DNA of 64,000 nt from Salinispira pacifica (GTDB lineage: Bacteria > Spirochaetota > Spirochaetia > DSM-27196 > Salinispiraceae), in NCBI RefSeq assembly GCF_000507245.1, contig NC_023035.1:3453570-3517569 (forward strand). The letters are read 5' to 3'. The notes beneath the pieces were generated by a model. It was given only the letters and a program-made list of their open reading frames with translations. It searched no databases and was not told where the DNA came from. Below, in pieces: positions 24,490 to 38,166 of the stretch (positions are counted from its first letter, which is position 1; every line of letters begins with the position of its first letter). A program made the translations under genes and the position numbers.

Positions 24490-24625
24490 TTAGAGCAGGT
24501 TGGTGATCCTGAGCCTGGGTTCGTTGTATGGATATGAAACCATTTGCAGTATATCTTCAGGATTTCTCCCTGAAACACAGGACAGGAGAGATGGTTTCAC
24601 CAGTCTTGTTCCCCGGGGGTACAAT
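24490..24625 (+). promoter_or_regulatory. Possible promoter and folded leader of the next lipoprotein gene
   Basis: An extended -10 (TGCTATATT, ~24481-24489) leads to a ~130-base leader holding a 9-bp inverted repeat TGAAACCAT/ATGGTTTCA around a small TCAGG/CCTGA hairpin. I match it to no known riboswitch class. Confidence 0.35.
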
Positions 24626-25900
24626 GTGATAGTTCACAAGAATGCCGTAGAGAGCAAAAATACTACATTCTGCATACATAATAGTATCTCCTGTTTCAGC
24701 GTTGTCCTGATTGCATCACTTTTTCTGATGAGCTGCAGTGATCCTTTGAACCTCTTCGGAGAGTATGATGGGGTCAACCTGATTGATGGATATCAATTTG
24801 GTGAAACAGATGCCGAAGGAAACGGTTGGACTGCTGATCACGGTTGGGGCTCAGGCTTCACACAAACATCGGTAAATAACTATATGAACTTTGAGCCGGT
24901 TACCGGAATCGACACAAGTTCCATCCCCGCTCCGGCAGATGGTGATCCGGTACATGTATATCGTCTTGAAATAAAGAATCAATTTATAAACGGGGACTTT
25001 GAATCTGCCGGAGAGCTTTCGAATGTGTTCTATGTTGATCCAGATAGCGGTGTTGAGTCATCGGCATCGATTGAATCGGGAGTTGATAATGAAATAGGCA
25101 CCGGCCAATCAGTCAGGATTAATACGGTTATTGATGATCCAATCGACCAATACTACATTGACCTGGCAACCCGGGTTAATACCTGGTCGGATGCGGATGA
25201 GTACAGTTTTCATTTTGATTTTTATTCATACATAGGGTCTTACTATTTCCAGTTCGATGATAATACTGACCGTCCTGATTTCCTGTATTTCAGTGCCTTA
25301 TCGGAACGAACTGAAACGGTTCTTTCCTTTCCAGGCAACGCCTCGACTGAGAAAAACAACCTCATAAGTGCCGATTCCCGTTACTCGCGCTGGTATCTGG
25401 GAAAGGTGGATGGAACAGTTCAGTTCGACAGCCAGCTGGACAATATCCGTTTTGTACGAGCGGATACCGATTATGCCGTACGCCTTCAGGTACCTTATAC
25501 TCATGAAGACAGCGGTCTGGAGTTGGTTCAGAATGCCCCATACGTCTTCACGCTGTATGTTCGAAAGGATTCCCGGGCTCCGGGAGCAAACAATTTCTAC
25601 TCCGAAATTTTAAATGTCACCGCATCTGATATATATTCCGGCGGAATAGGTGGGGTGACAGTCAGTCAGGATTTTGACATCAGTTCAATTGGAAGCTCAT
25701 GGACGAAAATCCAAATGCCGTTCGACGGTCTTGTCCAGGGTGTCCCTGAAGATGATTCAGCGAAGATGATCGAAATCGCAATAACAGCTTCTGGACTCAA
25801 TAAAACCATCGATGAGGCGGGAAATCTCAGCGTATTTCCCCTTGATGCAGGAGCAGTGCTCATCGCTGCACCTTCCCTTGAGCTAGGCACAATAGAGTAG
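24626..25900 (+). CDS. Surface lipoprotein next to the giant repeat protein
   Basis: About 424 residues from the GTG at 24626. The signal peptide (SCFSVVLIASLFLMSC) is clear and supports this start; the in-frame ATG at 24500 would add an unlikely leader, so the exact start is uncertain. The mature protein is Asp/Ser/Tyr-rich and beta in character; the NQFINGDFESAGELSNV and later FDISSIGSSWTKIQMPFDGL stretches resemble carbohydrate-binding jelly-roll segments. No enzyme motif is seen. It converges with the giant gene and may share its location at the cell surface. Confidence 0.75.
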   Translation: MIVHKNAVESKNTTFCIHNSISCFSVVLIASLFLMSCSDPLNLFGEYDGVNLIDGYQFGETDAEGNGWTADHGWGSGFTQTSVNNYMNFEPVTGIDTSSIPAPADGDPVHVYRLEIKNQFINGDFESAGELSNVFYVDPDSGVESSASIESGVDNEIGTGQSVRINTVIDDPIDQYYIDLATRVNTWSDADEYSFHFDFYSYIGSYYFQFDDNTDRPDFLYFSALSERTETVLSFPGNASTEKNNLISADSRYSRWYLGKVDGTVQFDSQLDNIRFVRADTDYAVRLQVPYTHEDSGLELVQNAPYVFTLYVRKDSRAPGANNFYSEILNVTASDIYSGGIGGVTVSQDFDISSIGSSWTKIQMPFDGLVQGVPEDDSAKMIEIAITASGLNKTIDEAGNLSVFPLDAGAVLIAAPSLELGTIE

Positions 25901-25982: not shown

Positions 25983-28900
25983 TTACTTCACCACTAGAAC
26001 CTTTCGAATCTCATCAACTCCAGGTGCCGTGATTCTGATAAAATAGAATCCTCTGGCTACAGTATCCCCGTTACTGTTCTGTCCGTTCCATGAAATATTA
26101 TGTATCCCTGTTCCCTGTCTTCCACGATGAAGAACTTTCACCAGATCTCCATCGAGGGTAAACACATTAATGAGTACCATTCCCGGACGATCAAGGGTGT
26201 AGTTGAGAACGGTTTGATCTCCTGTCTCAGGATTGATCACATTATTAAGAATGGTTGCTCCGCCGCGTTGCTCAACGATGCCGCCAATTTCTATGCTCCA
26301 GGGCTTCAGGGTTAAGGGTTCATTGGGGTCCTCTATGTTTGCTGCAAGAAGGGGACCTACCCGGTACATGAATTCGACTTCAGCTCCCCTTTCAATTTCC
26401 GGGTCTCCGGCCGGCAACAGATGCTGGGCGATACCGGTGGAGGAATCTGAATTTTGACGATTACTGATCCTTGCCTCAGTATTCGGGTCGGGTATCAGGC
26501 CCGGCACGGCTATCGGTGACCAGTACATTCCCGGTGCTCCATCCAGCAAGAGGTTTTTCTTATCATCAGGAACATTCACATCGAAAAAGAGGTTTATTGG
26601 TAAATCATGGTAACTCGGTGCAGTTATTCCCGACTCAACGGTAATATCCAGATCATCCAATGCTTCGCTCCCGTCGAAGTCTCTGATTGAGCTGAAACCG
26701 GATCCCCGTTCATCATCTTTTTGGATTCCATCGGTAGCCCAAATAGGCCGAACGATTCCTATTCCCACATCGGTAATTCGGCGGTTTGATCCAATTCTGT
26801 ACTGATTAAGGGCTTTATCATAGAAGGTCTCAGTGGAAGGTCCCGGATCCTGGTCCACCGGCCGGATATCAATCAGGAATAGATCATCAGCGCTCAATTC
26901 ACTGTCGAGCAGAAGATATGCCTCCTCAACTCCAGGGGTATTGCTGGGTGAAAGCTCGGCATTGGATTTAAGAACTTCAATGCCTGTTATATTTACTCCG
27001 GGATCAGAGAGTACAAAGAACGTTTCGTCAATTGCTGAGCTAAGAGTTTGGTCAGCCCATACCGGTTCAGTGAATTTAACATAGATTCGGTTACCACTTA
27101 CCGCTGCCAAGGAAAGGATAATTTCCGGAGGTGTGCGCTCAATGGCCAGGAGTTTACCTTTCTCCGGCGAAACCGCCACACCACTCTCTTCAAAGGGATT
27201 GATTGCATAGGGTTCATATTCCGGACCGAATTGGGACGCCATATTTTCCGGTCGACTGCTGGGCATGAGGTTACCCGCAAGATCGGTGAGGTATCCATTT
27301 TGATTATGGGCATAGGCAAGATAGATTTCAGTGAGGTTATCCCAGCCCGCAGTTGCGGCATTATTGATAAATAGTCGGAAATAAGGATCATCCACACCCG
27401 CAATAATAGACCCATCCCGGCGATAAAGCTGGTTTTCTACCGAATCAGTTTGATACTCCCCGCCGAGTTCAGTGCCTGCATTGAAGGCGGAGCTCAATGT
27501 TTCTCCACGTACTCCGAGCCTGATTGATTCGGTAAACGTGGTGAAATTTCCTGCGAACGTTGCGCTGGAATCACGAACACCCCGATAGGTCTCTCCGGCC
27601 TGTTCATCCAGTTGGTCTCCAATACCGGCTGTGCCGTAATACGGCCGGTCGGAAAACAACGGCCCGCCCGGAGCACCTTCATCGTGATCGCTACTGGCGA
27701 CCCAGTTTCCAAGTTCGGCGAGATTGTCTTCACTGAGCTGAAAAGCACCTGCGGAGGCAATCCCGTTATCCTGAATAAATACGTCAAACCCATCGATCAA
27801 CTGAGTAATCGGATTTTCAATAAGTACAATTTCATACGCCTGTGCGATATTGGGGCGAAGACCCGGATACAGGTTAGCCGGGTCGGCTCCCGCCTGGAAT
27901 GCCGAAATTACCGGAGCGGATACATCCCAGAAGTCGAAGTTGGTTCCCGGTGTGTACACACTTCCCGGAAGACCTGTGGACCCAAGGGGGGTAAAAGGTG
28001 TATCAGTTGCCGCAAAACTGGACCCAACCGGATACGCATCAGGCCGCTGCACGGTCTCTGGGCTTTCCATCAGAGATCGTGTGCTCTCTAATGCATCTAT
28101 CCAATTGTCGGATGCCGAACTGTCTGTAATGAAATTATTTTGCTCAACCTCTATTAGTGTTCCCGGCGAATAAGGGTCTGGAACGAGAAAGTGCCAACCC
28201 GGCCAATTGGTACCATCCCAAAAACCTGCAAGGTACACCTCTATGGTTCGATCATCCAATGCATACAAACTGTTGACTGTTTCTTTTCCGGCAGCAGGAA
28301 CATCCCGGTACCCCGTTTGAAAGGGCGGATCAGTGCCCAGGGCATAACTGCTGTTTGTATAGAAAAAATACCCGTTGAGATGCACCACTTCTTCGTCGGT
28401 GGAGTCTGAATCAATATCAATTTGATCATTGAGAAAATCACCGCCGATAGTAACTGCTCCGTCGAATGTGGTATCGGCACGATAGTTGCCGGCACCTATT
28501 ACCGCACCAGGCAGCTGGGAACTGAGGGTAATATCTTCAGAAAAATGCAGCTTGAAAAAATTATGACCGTCCCTTCCGTCACCGGAATTCCTCATTCGAC
28601 CAACTTCCACCGCATAAAGCACGGGACCCATTTTATCTTCTGCGCTTTCATTAACATTGAGATCGGCATCTCCGCTTCCATAGCCACCGCCATCATTGTC
28701 TGCGTACACCATATCCGCACCATTGCTTCCCCGCAGCTCTGCTTTCAACCAGCCTATATCCACAGCACCGATGCCGGGCACATTCCCTTCACTGTCAGTT
28801 CCTGTCCCTGCTCCGCCGGCATCAGTTCCATTGGAATCTGTTGCCCATGTTGCACCATTCAGCTTGAGGTAGATCGTTTTCAGCGCATCAAACGACGCAT

Positions 28901-31900
28901 TATCGGTCCTGCGGTAAGGCTCGGTATCACGATTACCATCGCTATCGTCATCGATGATCTCACTGTATAATGGAAAACTCTGATTTCCTGCCGCCCAATA
29001 TGGGGCAAGATACACCTCTCCCTGGAAGGGTGTGCCGCCTATGTTAATGGAAGCAGCGCTGCTGGTAATCTCCGAATTTGTGTTCATTATTGGTTTGTTG
29101 AATGTAATCCGGGCTACATCATCTTTTACCAGCTCTATCGAATCGACAACTGTTATTACATTGTCGAAACCATAGTTTGGCGTATATTCGCTGTCGAATC
29201 GCACTCTTCCGGCGCCGGCTCCCGAAAAGTCTCCGGAAAAACCACGGGTGTCCGGATTAAAATCCGGCTGAGTGAAAGCTGAAAAATCGTACACACTTGT
29301 GGAGCCGTTTAGGGTTGAGGGATTCGCATCTGCGTCTGTCACAATATTTGCTGCAATAATTGTTTTAGTCTGAACCAGGGCATTGGTAATGGTATTATTT
29401 ATCGACACTGAATACGGGGCTCCCCAATCTGTATTATCACCCGGGGTAGGAGCTGCAGATCTGTTATCGGGTAAATAGAGATTCCAATCGCCCCCCGCGG
29501 AGGGAAGGTCGCTGCTGTTTACATAGAAATTCCCGAAGTTATCGCTTGGTCCGTATGTGTTGTCACCCTGATTATCAACACGGATATTAACCCCGTCTAA
29601 ATCCCCAAAGCCGCCTGTGTACGGTGGCGCAGGCTGATAAGTTTCTATCCTCGGCATATTAATTGCAGACGGATATTTCCATTTATCGGCACCCGCAGCT
29701 CTGTCAGGGTCATCCACTGACGTATTTGCTGCATATCCCAGTACAACCAAATCCTCATCGGTATACAGATCTGTTGGAATTACCGAGTCGCCCCGTAAAT
29801 CAACAGTACCGCCAAAGAGAAAGAAATTATTCACAGATACCGCCGGAATATTTTCAAGTTCTATAACAGCTCCTGCAGAATCGATAAACAGGTCATTAAA
29901 TATAAGGGGCCTTCCATTGCTATCTATATCAATATTCACCGGAACATTCACATATGTCTCGTTCCCGGTAATAAATTGATTGTTCCCAGGCCCGTCGGTT
30001 CGAATACCGCCGCCGCTGAGTTCGATAATATCAGCAGTAAATGTCAGATTCCCCAACTCGTAGATCCCGGCATCATTGATCGGATCATCTGTCCCGATAT
30101 TGCCTTCAATCACAATTTGGGATGAAGCATTTCCGTTATCATCAATAACAAGATCCTCAGATGTAGCAGATACAATGTTCGAGTTGGATGTGAATGTGAC
30201 ATTTGCGGCATTAAAATTTATGGTAACCGTGCCGCTGGAAATTGTGAGGGTATCGTTTATGGCTGCCGGATCGGCATTGAAGGTTCCGAAGGTGATGTCG
30301 CCTGCTGTATTGAAAATTATGCCATGCAGTTCAACATCGTCCTGAAAATTACTGTCAACAGTTGACCCTGAAATTGTCACTTCATCGTGGAACTCAATAC
30401 TTCCTGTGAGTGCATCATCCTGCAGCAATCCTTCACCGGCATCCAGGGTGCTGTTGAATATAACATCACCGTTGCCTGTTATATTCAAGGACCCTGCATC
30501 GCCAGCTGCCAGGTCGACAGTACTATTAAAGCTTGTTGTACCAGCAGAATCAATCGTCAGATTTGTCCCTGTGGCTGCACCCAGGGAAGTATTATTTCCA
30601 ACCGGACCGTCTATAGTAGTAATGTCATCGAAGCGCAGAGTCAGATTCTGGGGGCCATTCAATTGAGAATTAATTGTTAGAGAAGCAGTTCCTGCACCAT
30701 CGGTAAGGAGAACGGATCCCCCCAGGAGTTCAAAGGTATCAGTATTATCGCTACCAACAGTGACAGCTCCGCCGCTGATAAGCGTTAAACCTGCATTAAA
30801 CTCCACATCTTCATTGAATGTATACGAACCTGCGACGAATGTGATATCGCCCGATGCGCTAAATAGACCTGCGCCAACGTCCTGTACAAAGTTGCCGGTT
30901 ACATCCAGGGTACCTTGGAGTGAAACAGTTCCGTTATTATGGTTAAAATCACCGGTAACATCCACATTCCCACCGGTGGAATCAAAATCAATCTCCGTGC
31001 TTAAATTACCGCCAACATTCAGATTGAATGTTGAAATGTGAAGTTCACCATCAGCCACTAGATTACTATTGGTAGTCATTCCATTTAGCAGGTTTACCGT
31101 AGTAGCGGGAGTTATTTCTACAACATTGTAGTTGCCCCCGGATGTCAAGTTTGTGGGTGCCCCTGAGTCAAATGTGACCGTACCTCCGGCCGCGGTGAAA
31201 CCGCCGCTGAAGTTCACTGTAGTAGAGGCGATACTGGTTGTTGCAGATGATTCGGTAAACGCACCTACATTCACCGTAGCACCATTTATGTCTACCGCAC
31301 CGCTTCCAAAGGTTGCGGTCCCGCTGGTCAGGTCACCTGTAATTTCTACATCTCCGGCACCGCCGTTCAGCGTCGAAATACTCACGTTTCCGCCGATTAG
31401 CACGCCACCGCCCCCAAGGCTTAGCGTACCAGTTCCCCCTACTGCGCCGGTCACTCCAAAGGTCTCTGTTCCTGTCTGGCCACCTGCATCAACTGTTCCG
31501 TCAGCACTGATGCTTGCTGCATCAAGCGTGTTGTTTCCCGTGCTTAGCTGTCCCGACGGTATTGTTATCGCGCCAAAATTCGCATCATCCTGCATCTGTA
31601 CATCTGTGGCTCCACCGGTTATATCCGTGGCACCCATATTATTCCCATCAGTCGTTAATGTCTGGGCTCCCCCGCCGTTAAAGCGGATCGTACCACCGTT
31701 GGTGTAGGCTCCGGTGCTGAAGTCTGCATTCCCTGCGACTTCAACCACTCCGCTGCTGTTGTCCAGTGTACCGTTCACATCCACAAGACCGTCTACATCC
31801 AGAGTGTCCCCGTTTGTGCTCAGCTGACTGTCAATCTGCAGCGAACTCATGAGGATATTGCTCTGCATTGTCTGTGTGGCAGTATTCACTGTCACTGAGC

Positions 31901-34900
31901 CAAGATCCTGGGTACCGCCATTTGAATCTGTCAGATCTCCAGCCGCTCCGCCTATCCCTCCAAGGGTGAGAGCCTGAGCGTTATTCCCATAGCTTCCGCC
32001 GCTTTCAATAACAAAATGACGATTCACCGTCAGAGCATCCTGGGGCGTCAGGCCGCCGCCATTCAAAATACGCAGGTCATAGATCTCCGCTCCGCTACTG
32101 GTCAGATTCACTGTTCCTGATATCTGCAGTTCTCCGATTCCCCCGTCCAAACCGCTTATGTCTGCATCGCCTCCCAATGTCAGACTGTAGCTACCAAGGG
32201 TGAGCGTACCGTTTACCGTCAGCAAACCATCCACGGTCATATTGTTTTGAAGTTGCACGTTCGTTGGCCCTGCTACCGTGAAGTCATTGTAGTTCCCATT
32301 GCTGGTAAGGGTGGTTGATCCCGCCCTATCCAGGATAAGTTCTCCGGTATTTGCGGTGAACCCGCCGCTGAAGTTTACTGTCGTCCCGGCAATATTCGTG
32401 GTGGATGACGACTCAGTGAATGAAACAGCACTGGTCACATCACCATCTATGTCCACAGCCCCGCTGCCCAAAGCAACTGTTCCGCTGGTCAGATTTCCGT
32501 GAACACTAATCGTTCCCGCTCCGCCGTTCAGCGTTGACACACTCACATTTCCCTGAAGATCATGAGTCCCGGCGGCCAGGGTAACTGTCCCGGTACCGTT
32601 AACCAGTCCGGTGACAATCAGGCTGTTCCCGTTCATATCCAATGTGTTATTCGCTGTGAGGCTGGCTGCACTCCAGTCCGACTGGGCTGTCACTGCAGCA
32701 GAAACAATCACATTGTTAAATGTATATCCCCCAACGGCTCCTACGTTGCCGCCGGTGGTATCAAAGGTTACCGTTGAACCTCCGTTGGTAAAGGTTGCAC
32801 TGGTCAGACTGCCGCCTATTGCCGTACCGTTGCTTGAGGCGGTAAAACTGTTTACGCTTACATCCCCGTCTATATCTGCAGCTCCGCCGCCCAGGCTTAC
32901 CGTACCAGTTCCCCCTACTGCGCCGGTCACTCCAAATGTCTCTGTTCCTGTCTGGCTGCTGGCATCAACTGTTCCGTCAGCACTCAGGCTGCCGGCGCTG
33001 AAGGAATTTGCTCCAGTGTTCAATGTTCCGGTGACTGTCGCCGCCGATCCAACAGTGGCGTCACTAGCAAGGGTCACTGTCGTTCCGCCGGCTACCGTGA
33101 AGTCATTGTAGTTCCCATTGCTGGTAAGGGTGGTTGATCCCGCCCTATCCAGGATAAGTTCTCCGGTATTTGCGGTGAACCCGCCGCTGAAGTTTACTGT
33201 CGTCCCGGCAATATTCGTGGTGGATGACGACTCAGTGAATGAAACAGCACTGGTCACATCACCATCTATGTCCACAGCCCCGCTGCCCAAAGCAACTGTT
33301 CCGCTGGTCAGATTTCCGTGAACACTAATCGTTCCCGCTCCGCCGTTCAGCGTTGACACACTCACATTTCCCTGAAGATCATGAGTCCCGGCGGCCAGGG
33401 TAACTGTCCCGGTACCGTTAACCAGTCCGGTGACAATCAGGCTGTTCCCGTTCATATCCAATGTGTTATTCGCTGTGAGGCTGGCTGCACTCCAGTCCGA
33501 CTGGGCTGTCACTGCAGCAGAAACAATCACATTGTTAAATGTATATCCCCCAACGGCTCCTACGTTGCCGCCGGTGGTATCAAAGGTTACCGTTGAACCT
33601 CCGTTGGTAAAGGTTGCACTGGTCAGACTGCCGCCTATTGCCGTACCGTTGCTTGAGGCGGTAAAACTGTTTACGCTTACATCCCCGTCTATATCTGCAG
33701 CTCCGCCGCCCAGGCTTACCGTACCAGTTCCCCCTACTGCGCCGGTCACTCCAAATGTCTCTGTTCCTGTCTGGCTGCTGGCATCAACTGTTCCGTCAGC
33801 ACTCAGGCTGCCGGCGCTGAAGGAATTTGCTCCAGTGTTCAATGTTCCGGTGACTGTCGCCGCCGATCCAACAGTGGCGTCACTAGCAAGGGTCACTGTC
33901 GTTCCGCCGGCTACCGTGAAGTCATGGTAGTTCCCATTGCTGGTAAGGGTGGTTGATCCCGCCCTATCCAGGATAAGTTCTCCGGTATTTGCGGTGAACC
34001 CGCCGCTGAAGTTTACTGTCGTCCCGGCAATATTCGTGGTGGATGACGACTCAGTGAATGAAACAGCACTGGTCACATCACCATCTATGTCCACAGCCCC
34101 GCTGCCCAAAGCAACTGTTCCGCTGGTCAGATTTCCGTGAACACTAATCGTTCCCGCTCCGCCGTTCAGCGTTGACACACTCACATTTCCCTGAAGATCA
34201 TGAGTCCCGGCGGCCAGGGTAACTGTCCCGGTACCGTTAACCAGTCCGGTGACAATCAGGCTGTTCCCGTTCATATCCAATGTGTTATTCGCTGTGAGGC
34301 TGGCTGCACTCCAGTCCGACTGGGCTGTCACTGCAGCAGAAACAATCACATTGTTAAATGTATATCCCCCAACGGCTCCTACGTTGCCGCCGGTGGTATC
34401 AAAGGTTACCGTTGAACCTCCGTTGGTAAAGGTTGCACTGGTCAGACTGCCGCCTATTGCCGTACCGTTGCTTGAGGCGGTAAAACTGTTTACGCTTACA
34501 TCCCCGTCTATATCTGCAGCTCCGCCCCCAAGGCTTAGCGTACCAGTTCCCCCTACTGCGCCGGTCACTCCAAAAGTCTCTGTTACTGTCTGGCCACCTG
34601 CATCAACTGTTCCGTCAGCACTGATGCTTGCTGCATCAAGCGTGTTGTTTCCCGTGCTTAGCTGTCCCGACGGTATTGTTATCGCGCCAAAATTCGCATC
34701 ATCCTGCATCTGTACATCTGTGGCTCCACCGGTTATATCCGTGGCACCCATATTATTCCCATCAGTCGTTAATGTCTGGGCTCCCCCGCCGTTAAAGCGG
34801 ATCGTACCACCGTTGGTGTAGGCTCCGGTGCTGAAGTCTGCATTCCCTGCGACTTCAACCACTCCGCTGCTGTTGTCCAGTGTACCGTTCACATCCACAA

Positions 34901-37028
34901 GACCGTCTACATCCAGAGTGTCCCCGTTTGTGCTCAGCTGACTGTCAATCTGCAGCGAACTCATGAGGATATTGCTCTGCATTGTCTGTGTGGCAGTATT
35001 CACTGTCACTGAGCCAAGATCCTGGGTACCGCCATTTGAATCTGTCAGATCTCCAGCCGCTCCGCCTATCCCTCCAAGGGTGAGAGCCTGAGCGTTATTC
35101 CCATAGCTTCCGCCGCTTTCAATAACAAAATGACGATTCACCGTCAGAGCATCCTGGGGCGTCAGGCCGCCGCCATTCAAAATACGCAGGTCATAGATCT
35201 CCGCTCCGCTACTGGTCAGATTCACTGTTCCTGATATCTGCAGTTCTCCGATTCCCCCGTCCAAACCGCTTATGTCTGCATCGCCTCCCAATGTCAGACT
35301 GTAGCTACCAAGGGTGAGCGTACCGTTTACCGTCAGCAAACCATCCACGGTCATATTGTTTTGAAGTTGCACGTTCGTTGGCCCTGCTACCGTGAAGTCA
35401 TTGTAGTTCCCATTGCTGGTAAGGGTGGTTGATCCCGCCCTATCCAGGATAAGTTCTCCGGTATTTGCGGTGAACCCGCCGCTGAAGTTTACTGTCGTCC
35501 CGGCAATATTCGTGGTGGATGACGACTCAGTGAATGAAACAGCACTGGTCACATCACCATCTATGTCCACAGCCCCGCTGCCCAAAGCAACTGTTCCGCT
35601 GGTCAGATTTCCGTGAACACTAATCGTTCCCGCTCCGCCGTTCAGCGTTGACACACTCACATTTCCCTGAAGATCATGAGTCCCGGCGGCCAGGGTAACT
35701 GTCCCGGTACCGTTAACCAGTCCGGTGACAATCAGGCTGTTCCCGTTCATATCCAATGTGTTATTCGCTGTGAGGCTGGCTGCACTCCAGTCCGACTGGG
35801 CTGTCACTGCAGCAGAAACAATCACATTGTTAAATGTATATCCCCCAACGGCTCCTACGTTGCCGCCGGTGGTATCAAAGGTTACCGTTGAACCTCCGTT
35901 GGTAAAGGTTGCACTGGTCAGACTGCCGCCTATTGCCGTACCGTTGCTTGAGGCGGTAAAACTGTTTACGCTTACATCCCCGTCTATATCTGCAGCTCCG
36001 CCGCCCAGGCTTACCGTACCAGTTCCCCCTACTGCGCCGGTCACTCCAAATGTCTCTGTTCCTGTCTGGCCGCCTGCATCAACTGTTCCGTCAGCACTCA
36101 GGCTGCCGGCGCTGAAGGAATTTGCTCCAGTGTTCAATGTTCCGGTGACTGTCGCCGCCGATCCAACAGTGGCATCATTTGAAAGGTTCACCGTCGTTCC
36201 GCCGGCAACCGTGAAGTCATTGTAGTTCCCATTGCTGGTAAGGGTGGTTGATCCCACCCTATCAAGGATAAGTTCTCCGGTATTTGCGGTGAATCCTCCG
36301 CTGAAATCAACGCTTGCTCCGGCAATATTCGTGGTGGATGACGACTCAGTGAATGAAACAGCACTGGTCACATCACCATTTATATCAACGGCACCTGCTC
36401 CGGAGGTGAATGTTCCAACCGACACATTCCCGCCTATGCTTGCAGATCCGCCGCCAAGAAGAACTGTTCCCGAGCCCGATACGTCTCCGCCAATGGACAC
36501 AGCCCCCGTAGACCCGGAAACATCTATTGTCCCGTCGGTGTTGGTGTTGATGCTTCCTCCGGTAGTGAATGTTGCGGCTCCAGTTAAGGCAAGAGTTCGG
36601 CCGTTGTTTATGGAAAGACTTCCGGCACTTATAGTAATTGCCCCGCTAATATCAGCGCCGGCGTTGCTCATATCCAGGACGCCGGTAACTGAGAGGGTGC
36701 CCGGACCTAAAAGGCCATCTATAATAGCAGCAGCATCAGCGGTAAGAGTATTACCGTTCAGATCGATGGTTGTACCTGCGGTACCAAAAAGATTATTAGC
36801 AAAACCATCTCCGGTGAGTCGAACCGTGACAGGAGCAGCACTCAAATCAACATTCTCGGCCGGAGTCGGCAGAGTATTTCCGTTCCAGTTCAGAGCATCA
36901 TTCCAAGTCAGATTGTCCCCGCCGCCATCCCATGTTTTTTGGGCGAAAACAGCCGCCGGTAATGCAATAAGCACGCAAACTACGAGACATAATCTGTAAA
37001 CATGTGAAAACGCTGTGTGTGCACCCAT
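25983..37028 (-). CDS. Giant repeat-rich exported protein (3681 residues)
   Basis: Signal peptide from the ATG at 37028 (LCLVVCVLIALPAAVFAQ), which lies downstream of a good promoter; an earlier ATG at 37094 overlaps the -35 box. Mature start WDGGGDNLTWNDALNWNG recalls autotransporter passenger domains. Residues ~40-2000 are Gly/Thr/Ser/Asn-rich short beta-strand repeats, a probable beta-helix. They contain near-identical 273-residue units (three in tandem with the first shortened, one separate) and two 288-residue units. Then come Ig-like/SwmB-type segments (e.g. ARITFNKPIMNT, VYVKFTEPVW-like). The last ~90 residues (LINVFTLDGDLVKVLHRGRQ to RKVLVVK) match FlgD-Ig/type A sorting domains. Likely adhesion or surface structure; function inferred. 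Confidence 0.88.
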   Translation of the reverse strand: MGAHTAFSHVYRLCLVVCVLIALPAAVFAQKTWDGGGDNLTWNDALNWNGNTLPTPAENVDLSAAPVTVRLTGDGFANNLFGTAGTTIDLNGNTLTADAAAIIDGLLGPGTLSVTGVLDMSNAGADISGAITISAGSLSINNGRTLALTGAATFTTGGSINTNTDGTIDVSGSTGAVSIGGDVSGSGTVLLGGGSASIGGNVSVGTFTSGAGAVDINGDVTSAVSFTESSSTTNIAGASVDFSGGFTANTGELILDRVGSTTLTSNGNYNDFTVAGGTTVNLSNDATVGSAATVTGTLNTGANSFSAGSLSADGTVDAGGQTGTETFGVTGAVGGTGTVSLGGGAADIDGDVSVNSFTASSNGTAIGGSLTSATFTNGGSTVTFDTTGGNVGAVGGYTFNNVIVSAAVTAQSDWSAASLTANNTLDMNGNSLIVTGLVNGTGTVTLAAGTHDLQGNVSVSTLNGGAGTISVHGNLTSGTVALGSGAVDIDGDVTSAVSFTESSSTTNIAGTTVNFSGGFTANTGELILDRAGSTTLTSNGNYNDFTVAGPTNVQLQNNMTVDGLLTVNGTLTLGSYSLTLGGDADISGLDGGIGELQISGTVNLTSSGAEIYDLRILNGGGLTPQDALTVNRHFVIESGGSYGNNAQALTLGGIGGAAGDLTDSNGGTQDLGSVTVNTATQTMQSNILMSSLQIDSQLSTNGDTLDVDGLVDVNGTLDNSSGVVEVAGNADFSTGAYTNGGTIRFNGGGAQTLTTDGNNMGATDITGGATDVQMQDDANFGAITIPSGQLSTGNNTLDAASISADGTVDAGGQTVTETFGVTGAVGGTGTLSLGGGAADIDGDVSVNSFTASSNGTAIGGSLTSATFTNGGSTVTFDTTGGNVGAVGGYTFNNVIVSAAVTAQSDWSAASLTANNTLDMNGNSLIVTGLVNGTGTVTLAAGTHDLQGNVSVSTLNGGAGTISVHGNLTSGTVALGSGAVDIDGDVTSAVSFTESSSTTNIAGTTVNFSGGFTANTGELILDRAGSTTLTSNGNYHDFTVAGGTTVTLASDATVGSAATVTGTLNTGANSFSAGSLSADGTVDASSQTGTETFGVTGAVGGTGTVSLGGGAADIDGDVSVNSFTASSNGTAIGGSLTSATFTNGGSTVTFDTTGGNVGAVGGYTFNNVIVSAAVTAQSDWSAASLTANNTLDMNGNSLIVTGLVNGTGTVTLAAGTHDLQGNVSVSTLNGGAGTISVHGNLTSGTVALGSGAVDIDGDVTSAVSFTESSSTTNIAGTTVNFSGGFTANTGELILDRAGSTTLTSNGNYNDFTVAGGTTVTLASDATVGSAATVTGTLNTGANSFSAGSLSADGTVDASSQTGTETFGVTGAVGGTGTVSLGGGAADIDGDVSVNSFTASSNGTAIGGSLTSATFTNGGSTVTFDTTGGNVGAVGGYTFNNVIVSAAVTAQSDWSAASLTANNTLDMNGNSLIVTGLVNGTGTVTLAAGTHDLQGNVSVSTLNGGAGTISVHGNLTSGTVALGSGAVDIDGDVTSAVSFTESSSTTNIAGTTVNFSGGFTANTGELILDRAGSTTLTSNGNYNDFTVAGPTNVQLQNNMTVDGLLTVNGTLTLGSYSLTLGGDADISGLDGGIGELQISGTVNLTSSGAEIYDLRILNGGGLTPQDALTVNRHFVIESGGSYGNNAQALTLGGIGGAAGDLTDSNGGTQDLGSVTVNTATQTMQSNILMSSLQIDSQLSTNGDTLDVDGLVDVNGTLDNSSGVVEVAGNADFSTGAYTNGGTIRFNGGGAQTLTTDGNNMGATDITGGATDVQMQDDANFGAITIPSGQLSTGNNTLDAASISADGTVDAGGQTGTETFGVTGAVGGTGTLSLGGGGVLIGGNVSISTLNGGAGDVEITGDLTSGTATFGSGAVDINGATVNVGAFTESSATTSIASTTVNFSGGFTAAGGTVTFDSGAPTNLTSGGNYNVVEITPATTVNLLNGMTTNSNLVADGELHISTFNLNVGGNLSTEIDFDSTGGNVDVTGDFNHNNGTVSLQGTLDVTGNFVQDVGAGLFSASGDITFVAGSYTFNEDVEFNAGLTLISGGAVTVGSDNTDTFELLGGSVLLTDGAGTASLTINSQLNGPQNLTLRFDDITTIDGPVGNNTSLGAATGTNLTIDSAGTTSFNSTVDLAAGDAGSLNITGNGDVIFNSTLDAGEGLLQDDALTGSIEFHDEVTISGSTVDSNFQDDVELHGIIFNTAGDITFGTFNADPAAINDTLTISSGTVTINFNAANVTFTSNSNIVSATSEDLVIDDNGNASSQIVIEGNIGTDDPINDAGIYELGNLTFTADIIELSGGGIRTDGPGNNQFITGNETYVNVPVNIDIDSNGRPLIFNDLFIDSAGAVIELENIPAVSVNNFFLFGGTVDLRGDSVIPTDLYTDEDLVVLGYAANTSVDDPDRAAGADKWKYPSAINMPRIETYQPAPPYTGGFGDLDGVNIRVDNQGDNTYGPSDNFGNFYVNSSDLPSAGGDWNLYLPDNRSAAPTPGDNTDWGAPYSVSINNTITNALVQTKTIIAANIVTDADANPSTLNGSTSVYDFSAFTQPDFNPDTRGFSGDFSGAGAGRVRFDSEYTPNYGFDNVITVVDSIELVKDDVARITFNKPIMNTNSEITSSAASINIGGTPFQGEVYLAPYWAAGNQSFPLYSEIIDDDSDGNRDTEPYRRTDNASFDALKTIYLKLNGATWATDSNGTDAGGAGTGTDSEGNVPGIGAVDIGWLKAELRGSNGADMVYADNDGGGYGSGDADLNVNESAEDKMGPVLYAVEVGRMRNSGDGRDGHNFFKLHFSEDITLSSQLPGAVIGAGNYRADTTFDGAVTIGGDFLNDQIDIDSDSTDEEVVHLNGYFFYTNSSYALGTDPPFQTGYRDVPAAGKETVNSLYALDDRTIEVYLAGFWDGTNWPGWHFLVPDPYSPGTLIEVEQNNFITDSSASDNWIDALESTRSLMESPETVQRPDAYPVGSSFAATDTPFTPLGSTGLPGSVYTPGTNFDFWDVSAPVISAFQAGADPANLYPGLRPNIAQAYEIVLIENPITQLIDGFDVFIQDNGIASAGAFQLSEDNLAELGNWVASSDHDEGAPGGPLFSDRPYYGTAGIGDQLDEQAGETYRGVRDSSATFAGNFTTFTESIRLGVRGETLSSAFNAGTELGGEYQTDSVENQLYRRDGSIIAGVDDPYFRLFINNAATAGWDNLTEIYLAYAHNQNGYLTDLAGNLMPSSRPENMASQFGPEYEPYAINPFEESGVAVSPEKGKLLAIERTPPEIILSLAAVSGNRIYVKFTEPVWADQTLSSAIDETFFVLSDPGVNITGIEVLKSNAELSPSNTPGVEEAYLLLDSELSADDLFLIDIRPVDQDPGPSTETFYDKALNQYRIGSNRRITDVGIGIVRPIWATDGIQKDDERGSGFSSIRDFDGSEALDDLDITVESGITAPSYHDLPINLFFDVNVPDDKKNLLLDGAPGMYWSPIAVPGLIPDPNTEARISNRQNSDSSTGIAQHLLPAGDPEIERGAEVEFMYRVGPLLAANIEDPNEPLTLKPWSIEIGGIVEQRGGATILNNVINPETGDQTVLNYTLDRPGMVLINVFTLDGDLVKVLHRGRQGTGIHNISWNGQNSNGDTVARGFYFIRITAPGVDEIRKVLVVK
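31417..32280 (-). repeat. 864-bp unit, copy 2, in the giant gene
   Basis: An 864-bp (288-codon) stretch encoding PTNVQLQNNMTV through the LGSVTVNTATQTMQSN and DVQMQDDANFG segments. It repeats almost exactly at 34531-35394, 3114 bp away. The length is a multiple of three, so gain or loss keeps the frame. Confidence 0.88.
32281..34530 (-). repeat. Tandem 819-bp units in the giant gene (two full, one partial)
   Basis: Units at 32281-33099, 33100-33918 and 33919-34530 (shortened where it runs into the 864-bp block). By eye I find one base difference between the first two and the third over most of the unit (TCATTG against TCATGG, giving NYN/NYH). Each is 273 codons. Identity extends over silent positions, so the copies are recent or homogenised. 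Confidence 0.9.
34531..35394 (-). repeat. 864-bp unit, copy 1, in the giant gene
   Basis: Partner of 31417-32280 at a constant offset of 3114 bp. Small differences occur near the low-coordinate end (e.g. GTCTCTGTTACTG against GTCTCTGTTCCTG). Confidence 0.88.
35395..36213 (-). repeat. Separate fourth 819-bp unit in the giant gene
   Basis: Matches the tandem units over most of its length. It differs in a few clustered positions near the high-coordinate end (GGCCGCCTGC for GGCTGCTGGC, and CATCATTTGAAAGG for CGTCACTAGCAAGG). Confidence 0.87.
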
Positions 37029-37070
37029 AAATACCCCGCAGGTGGAAAAAAGAATTCGATTTTCTCTATA

Positions 37071-37099
37071 ACTATACAACGCATACGGGAACATTCCAA
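37071..37099 (-). promoter_or_regulatory. Promoter of the giant surface-protein gene
   Basis: Minus strand: TTGGAA (37099-37094), 17-base spacer, TATAGT (37076-37071). The start of transcription near 37064 leaves a ~36-base leader before the ATG at 37028. Confidence 0.72.
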
Positions 37100-37221: not shown

Positions 37222-38166
37222 ATGAAACGATTTGCCCTGTTTTTAGGTTTCTCACTCCTTTTGTTTGCACTCATCGGATGCGATACTCCTTTTTCTCCAC
37301 CCACATACACCATTACCTATGACGGAAACGGGTATGTGGGCGAGGAAATACCTACTGATGATTCAACATATGCTGAAGGCGATATTGCCATCTTGTCCGA
37401 TGGCGGCCAAATGACTCGAGCGGGATACACGCTGAACGGATGGACCACCGCCGGAGATGGTAGCGGTGACCATTATAATTTAGAAGCGGAATATATTATG
37501 CCGGCGGAAGATGTAACGCTTTTTGCTGAATGGAAACCAAATTCCAGCGGATATTCCATCACATACTATGGAAATGGCAACACGTCCGGTACTGCCCCTG
37601 AAGATAATACCGTGTATGCAAAAGACGAAGCGGTAATATTATCAGGCAGCGGAGATTTGTATAAATCCGGCGGGTATTCGTTTATTGGCTGGAATACTCA
37701 GTCCGATGGTAAGGGGGAGCATTATCATGCAAATGCAACGCTGGTTATGCCGGATGGTGATGTTGAGCTCTTTGCCCGCTGGAAGCCGGATACTGATAGC
37801 GAAGATCCAGAAATACTCGATCTCGCAATACTCACTCCGACAATTGATACTTCCACCGGAGACGACACGGCTACAATTGAAGTTAGAAGCTATGATGATG
37901 TCAAACTATATAAAGTTGAAATTGAGATAATAGCCCAGGACGGCGATCCCGATTTTTCAAACACGGTTCACACATTCAATACTGGATATTCAGGTGTTGA
38001 GTACATCGGAACCTTTACAGTGAATATACCCGTGCTCCAGGGGTCTGATGCCGGAACATGGATCATCAACTATGTGAACCTTACTGATAACGATTCAAAG
38101 GTTAATAGCTACTCTACCACGGATCTGACAGCTAAAGGATTTGCCACTGAATTTCAAAACCAGTAG
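37222..38166 (+). CDS. Lipoprotein with two InlB B-repeat (Listeria-Bacteroides) domains
   Basis: 314 residues, signal peptide ending LFALIGCDT (Cys20). Two ~75-residue B-repeats follow: YTITYDGNGYVGEEIPTDD ... GYTLNGWTTAGDG ... FAEWKP, and YSITYYGNGNTSGTAPEDN ... GYSFIGWNTQSDG ... FARWKP. The last ~120 residues form another beta domain (ATIEVRSYDDVKLYKVEIEI). These beta-grasp-like repeats are common in surface proteins and suggest binding or spacer roles. CGGAGGATCCT precedes the ATG. Divergent from the giant gene, so the two may share regulation. Confidence 0.88.
   Translation: MKRFALFLGFSLLLFALIGCDTPFSPPTYTITYDGNGYVGEEIPTDDSTYAEGDIAILSDGGQMTRAGYTLNGWTTAGDGSGDHYNLEAEYIMPAEDVTLFAEWKPNSSGYSITYYGNGNTSGTAPEDNTVYAKDEAVILSGSGDLYKSGGYSFIGWNTQSDGKGEHYHANATLVMPDGDVELFARWKPDTDSEDPEILDLAILTPTIDTSTGDDTATIEVRSYDDVKLYKVEIEIIAQDGDPDFSNTVHTFNTGYSGVEYIGTFTVNIPVLQGSDAGTWIINYVNLTDNDSKVNSYSTTDLTAKGFATEFQNQ

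Follow-up and report, generated by a model that had tools for sequence, protein, structure and literature searches.

The window, a stretch of 64,000 nucleotides from the spirochaete Salinispira pacifica, contains a single gene for a giant protein within which long units recur in frame, almost without divergence. The question raised by this locus was how such units arose and stay alike, and what kind of protein they build. An earlier note, made from the sequence alone, had described homogenised in-frame units here; that observation is right, and it was understated.

The 819-bp units beginning at 32281 and 33100 were compared and showed no mismatches, while a third, at 35395, differed from that at 33100 by 10 bases in 819. 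The partial unit reported at 33919 had three mismatches over 612 bp, and the 864-bp units at 31417 and 34531 had two. All periods were multiples of three, as had been stated, and the 273-residue units were 98.8–100% identical at the DNA level. Read in gene order, the array is a1-b1-a2-a3-b2, where 'a' denotes a repeat of 819 bp and 'b' one of 1476 bp (Table 1). The longest exact copy within it was 1,485 bp (34586–36070 is identical to 31472–32956), and here the near-identity at silent positions claimed previously was complete, with 0 differences in 378 synonymous sites and an upper bound on silent divergence of about 0.8%. Mismatches clustered towards the outside of the array, at the start of a1 (5') and the end of b2 (3'); within its initial 309 nt, a1 carried 9 synonymous and 14 non-synonymous differences (codons compared), and older repeats, 93% similar, were still visible at the left edge. 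The absence of silent divergence in the core, coupled with old edges, supports the recent duplication or gene conversion that had been suggested. The simplest history of the array would be the duplication of 'a' and 'b' together (2,295 bp), followed by duplication of 'a' (819 bp), out of older repeats that were 93% similar. The repeat unit was confined to the giant gene, none being found elsewhere in the S. pacifica genome.

Table 1. Features discussed in the text, in positions of the window unless a contig or locus is named.
Feature	Position	Strand	Remarks
Conserved lipoprotein gene, convergent with the giant gene	24500..25900	+	Lipobox LMSC; translation probably starts downstream of 24500
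Giant protein gene	25983..37028	-	3681 aa (3703 aa from upstream ATG at 37094)
Conserved C-terminal 390 residues, family-defining	25986..27155	-	Ig-like beta domains; model pLDDT 91
FlgD_ig (PF13860) domain	26025..26237	-	In the model, most similar to the CTDs of the T9SS proteins PorU and PorZ
Repeat b2	30972..32447	-	1476 bp; almost identical to b1 down to 31408, diverged beyond that (older edge)
Other copy of the 1,485-bp exact repeat	31472..32956	-	
Repeat a3	32448..33266	-	819 bp
288-residue stretch modelled as beta-solenoid	32982..33845	-	pLDDT 91.7, pTM 0.87
Repeat a2	33267..34085	-	819 bp; one mismatch against a3
Repeat b1	34086..35561	-	1476 bp; a-type ends flanking a b-specific insert
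1,485-bp stretch	34586..36070	-	Base-for-base copy of 31472–32956
Repeat a1	35562..36380	-	819 bp; older edge, diverged over the first ~309 nt
Predicted Sec signal peptide	36942..37028	-	29 aa, MGAHTAFSHVYRLCLVVCVLIALPAAVFA before QK; read from translation
Sigma-70-like promoter match	37071..37099	-	TTGGAA-17-TATAGT; one found against 0.9 expected by chance
Divergent SprA-like protein (S. pacifica genome)	C1:1761441-1766717 (= L167:10442-15718)	- (in L167)	1,759 aa; A6 profile match

Exact copies of this kind could instead reflect an artefact of assembly, through which the array had been collapsed or inflated. Short reads cope poorly with exact repeats as long as 1,485 bp, and 61 of 80 draft contigs from relatives stopped at most 10 kb upstream of the C-terminal domain, many of them inside the giant gene. 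However, the S. pacifica genome is a single contig of 3,782,798 bp, 99.8% complete and with dnaA at base 1, which matches the published assembly (3.78 Mb, 51.9% G+C against 51.8% in the window, dnaA first; PMC4511686). That assembly was made from a PacBio 10-kb library at 365x, and misassembly is unlikely since such reads are able to span the 5-kb array. Moreover, the copies carry private differences (one in a2, besides the diverged edges), and the same behaviour was seen in finished relatives. An artefact is accordingly considered very improbable. The frequency with which short-read assemblies break in or near the giant gene is an observation in its own right, and the annotated lengths of giant proteins may be unreliable for that reason.

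The open frame extends from 25983 to 37094 on the reverse strand and offers two start codons, at 37094 (3703 aa) and at 37028 (3681 aa). The latter is likelier, because a signal peptide is predicted directly after it and because the sole promoter-like site (37099–37071), itself no better than the chance expectation, would place the start of transcription downstream of the first ATG. Scans of the whole protein against Pfam and NCBIfam returned no match, which was probably due to the length and bias of the query, such that pieces of the protein were needed. No Pfam or NCBIfam family names the giant protein, apart from FlgD_ig at the C-terminal end (1.2e-8), and neither a phage-origin comparison nor defence-system models produced a match. 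No paper on the giant family, or on SprA in spirochaetes, was found in the open-access literature; a word search of the S. pacifica genome paper (surface, repeat, autotransporter; PMC4511686) found the giant gene unmentioned.

When the last 1,172 residues were used as query, there was one match, at 100% identity, in the S. pacifica genome itself and there were relatives in 49 of 100 genomes, of which the best aligned over the final 390 residues with about 38–46% identity. Among GTDB species genomes 205 loci were recovered, and the best 80 of these 205 belonged to Spirochaetota or to unnamed bacteria. Within the phylum Spirochaetota, 126 of 296 genomes produced matches, many of the deeper ones through the FlgD_ig part only, while the small-genome lineages (1.0–1.8 Mb) listed within the class gave no family match. 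As a rule the giant gene is present in a single copy per genome, and open frames in the family are as long as 5,000–7,000 aa. By sequence comparison, the giant gene is a member of an uncharacterised, Spirochaetota-wide family defined by its conserved C-terminus of 390 residues. This tail was the sole part conserved across the class, while the repetitive rod that precedes it turns over.

Repeats were surveyed in 81 distinct members of the family, each represented by at least 1,000 aa; runs of N were excluded, which left the counts unchanged. Direct repeats within the gene were observed in 38 of the 81, and repeats of at least 600 bp in 11, the largest being 3,440 bp at 99.7% identity. Two family repeats, of 716 and 2,077 bp, matched without a difference (100% identity). 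All 82 repeat periods were multiples of three, as an open frame demands, and they ranged from 115 to 1038 aa, differing from species to species. No repeat in the 81 members came within 505 aa of the C-terminus, and such repeats occurred in 0 of 81 genes after codon shuffling. In a congeneric pair, copies were 89% and 96% alike within species and only 67–75% alike between species, which points to concerted evolution; a second, very close pair showed no such separation (96–97% within, 94–97% between species). Two species at 86.5% identity differed by a 749-residue block, present in one protein and absent from the other (3,049 against 2,305 aa), so that rod length varies between close species; within one genus, protein length ranged from 1,636 to 3,049 aa. 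Together with the differing periods, the block present in one close species only gives indirect support to the length variation between strains that had been suggested. These alignments indicate that recurrent duplication inside the gene and concerted evolution have produced rods of variable length, with each relative copying its own pieces.

Structure prediction of a repeat unit, which the earlier note had proposed as a check, returned a beta-solenoid with short strands throughout (288-residue model, pLDDT 91.7). The model was built with AlphaFold2 from an alignment of the S. pacifica units with homologous stretches of relatives. It matched the two-partner adhesin EtpA over 286 of 288 residues (VIA-align, Z 20.0, rmsd 3.9), and HMW1 and EspC were also matched by structure alignment, while Foldseek gave no confident match (best E 0.38). 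Given that Foldseek was unconfident and that repeats inflate Z, the solenoid class is secure but the nearest relative is not. Pfam matches to the repeats were all sub-threshold (Invasin_D4, DUF3570, Fil_haemagg). An N-terminus resembling an autotransporter passenger had been claimed; the match to EtpA supports such a fold, but it resides in the repeats and not in the N-terminus only.

The claim that no barrel follows was likewise borne out, and for more than this gene. The autotransporter barrel PF03797 was found neither in the giant protein nor in the S. pacifica genome (an E. coli control was positive), and no TpsB (ShlB) transporter was found in the genome, where the control genomes gave sub-cut-off matches only. 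The N-terminal third had no Pfam match to the TPS (haemagglutination activity) domain, although a diverged TPS domain could escape this search. On the absence of PF03797 and ShlB in these tests, the giant protein is taken to be neither an autotransporter nor a two-partner protein. The giant protein thus has a predicted beta-helical passenger in common with type Va autotransporters, but is missing their C-terminal PF03797 barrel. A right-handed beta-helix is predicted for it as in EtpA, HMW1, HxuA and EspC, yet it differs from these adhesins in having neither a C-terminal barrel nor a detected TPS domain, and in ending with an Ig-like tail.

In that tail, FlgD_ig (PF13860) was matched by the last 90 residues at 35.2 bits, against a gathering cut-off of 27, and the best sequence relatives of the tail were FlgD proteins (E = 2e-8). 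This significant sequence match is shared with FlgD, but there the domain belongs to the flagellar hook-cap protein, whereas in the giant protein it is predicted to form the end of an exported protein. In the model of the C-terminal 390 residues (pLDDT 91), residues 298–390 resembled the C-terminal domains (CTDs) of two type IX secretion (T9SS) proteins, PorU (Z 10.2, rmsd 2.4 over 88 residues) and PorZ (Z 8.9, 88–89 residues). Ig folds are common, and a CTD-like fold alone is therefore weak evidence. The T9SS CTD model PF18962 (Por_Secre_tail) scored the tail at 13 bits, against a cut-off of 27, and TIGR04183 gave no match, as was true of all NCBIfam models on the whole protein. K385, near the end of the tail, was nearly invariant in the family alignment; type A CTDs have an almost invariant lysine near their end, and the SprA pore of Flavobacterium johnsoniae accommodates the bound CTD, together with PorV (PMC10994853).

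A direct search of the S. pacifica genome for SprA (TIGR04189) gave no match. Profiles were built stepwise through the phylum, from deep Spirochaetota to Spirochaetia and thence to S. pacifica. In deep-branching Spirochaetota, proteins of ~1,900 aa matched TIGR04189 at 1.5e-30 and 6.4e-31, which is under the 200-bit curated cut-off. The profile of these deep proteins (A5) matched proteins of 1,576–1,739 aa in six Spirochaetia genomes (best 7e-15), all six of which carry the giant gene; the weakest match (genome G071, E = 0.002) was confirmed against the other five at 4e-68 or better. The profile of the Spirochaetia proteins (A6) then identified a frame of 1,759 aa in S. pacifica (E = 1e-103), and a comparison of A6 with A5 aligned 749 columns (E = 4e-29). 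The Spirochaetia proteins had no direct match to TIGR04189, Pfam or PDB sequences. At the profile level, nonetheless, the S. pacifica protein is a distant homologue of SprA.

Gene order around the SprA-like gene was conserved in Spirochaetia, where it is followed by genes for a protein of 453–464 aa, a FecR-domain protein of 700–790 aa and MutL; in S. pacifica these neighbours are a 464-aa protein, a 790-aa FecR-domain protein and MutL, and the 464-aa and 790-aa proteins are related to each other. The 464-aa protein is about the size expected of PorV, although no PorV model matched it. The giant was present in 7 of 7 Spirochaetia genomes in which an SprA-like gene was found, while a 1.1-Mb genome without the giant had no SprA-like gene in the MutL region and the surrounding 400 kb (35% of that genome). 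Taken together, it is inferred that the tail of the giant and the SprA-like protein act together. Of the export paths considered for the giant, one of T9SS type is the likeliest and the best supported, with a probability that falls not far below even. With T9SS type A substrates the giant shares a predicted Sec signal peptide, a large and repetitive passenger, a terminal Ig-like domain with a near-invariant lysine and a distant SprA homologue in the genome. It differs from the system of Bacteroidota in that its tail is missed by PF18962 and TIGR04183, the S. pacifica SprA-like protein is very divergent, and the tail occurs on one main protein rather than on dozens of CTD proteins per genome.

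Two further observations concern FlgD_ig. Only two other proteins with this domain were seen in S. pacifica (C1:818280-820019 and C1:1874223-1875872); their frames measured 1,074 and 1,357 aa, and the domain occurred several times in each. The deep Spirochaetota genomes G110, G122, G132 and G101 had 19–35 FlgD_ig matches each, and G110, G122 and G101 also had a clearer SprA-like protein, perhaps constituting a multi-substrate T9SS-like system.

The convergent lipoprotein gene next to the giant is single-copy, its lipobox cysteine was invariant in the alignment, and its relatives weakly resembled carbohydrate-binding modules. Between it and the giant gene, a search for terminator-like sites was negative. 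This lipoprotein gene adjoined the giant at this position in 48 of the 96 distinct members whose flanks were long enough, and mapping its presence onto the C-terminal tree required 7 changes, compared with 32 once labels were shuffled. As a universal partner it was ruled out, since Treponema-type members and a large clade do not have it at that site; in a portion of the family it may act as an anchor or partner. Some members without it have a different lipoprotein-like gene 3' of the giant on the same strand (L039, L149, L152). On the other side, just upstream of the giant gene, lies a divergent lipoprotein with InlB-type repeats (37222–38166, forward strand; PF09479/PF18998), which was absent from that place in the relatives compared.

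These observations can be combined in one explanation, under which the gene encodes an exported and very long surface rod. Tandem segments are being duplicated in frame and homogenised inside the gene, as the sequences show, leaving old edges, with independent arrays in other members. A single uninterrupted right-handed beta-helix is predicted for the repeats, at high confidence, with Ig-like domains and the C-terminal Ig-like tail after it; each in-frame copy would then lengthen the rod without creating a new domain boundary. Unequal crossing-over between near-identical copies may change rod length, and so vary reach in a Periscope-like way. The tail could serve as a T9SS-like C-terminal signal, taken up by the SprA-like outer-membrane protein, and the rod might be left on the surface after export, possibly accompanied, in this clade, by the product of the convergent lipoprotein gene. 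As a whole, with in-gene duplication and homogenisation, a continuous beta-helix and a T9SS-like tail, this explanation is given an even chance.

Its strongest competitor holds that the protein is an ordinary Periscope-type stalk, a beta-helical adhesin exported by an unknown or general path, and that its tail does no more than cap the structure and has nothing to do with T9SS. Periscope Proteins (SasG, Rib, Sgo_0707, CdrA) are recognised by long tandem repeats of >80% identity (PMC8201768), a value that the repeats of the giant exceed, and they have in common with it long, highly identical in-frame repeats within a large surface-type protein, an elongated rod and a DNA identity that favours intragenic recombination. 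The best sequence relative of the tail is the FlgD Ig domain, and no T9SS family model fires in S. pacifica, both of which would suit a mere cap. Against this, conservation across the class is limited to the tail, the rod being subject to turnover, and an SprA-like protein is encoded in the same genome. The units, furthermore, are predicted to be stretches of one solenoid and not separate domains: a Periscope repeat is a fixed folded domain, whereas the giant is made of continuous solenoid stretches of arbitrary length (115 to 1038 aa by species). Given that its repeat is no discrete domain, and that variation was seen between species only (one genome per species), the giant works like a Periscope Protein but is not filed as a member. 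The stalk with a structural cap retains a considerable probability, if one clearly short of even. A periplasmic or S-layer lattice protein, that is, a structural part of the envelope with the Ig-like C-terminus as lattice or anchor module, is improbable. The C-terminal model does resemble the S-layer proteins SbsB and SbsC (Z 10.3 and 9.8), and one copy per genome as a rule would suit such a role; but the rmsd of 13–17 signifies that single Ig domains match and not their arrangement, the solenoid is adhesin-like, and the strong variation in length between species of one genus is awkward for a fixed lattice.

Returning to the exported rod with its T9SS-like tail, the data may describe a divergent T9SS-like system in Spirochaetota, comprising an SprA-like operon and, in most Spirochaetia, one main, dedicated giant solenoid substrate whose length is in flux through in-gene duplication, while deep relatives with many FlgD_ig tails keep a multi-substrate form. 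This is advanced tentatively, as a proposition slightly more apt to fail than to hold. The giant protein belongs to a phylum-wide family of giant surface-type proteins in spirochaetes, previously uncharacterised and probably including those of oral treponemes, in which the rod has been rebuilt repeatedly by exact copying within the gene while the tail stays fixed. Published work describes type IX secretion as confined to Bacteroidota (PMC10202324). Were the SprA-like protein and the tail to form one system, spirochaetes, in which the route of large proteins to the surface is unclear, would have type IX-like secretion as well.
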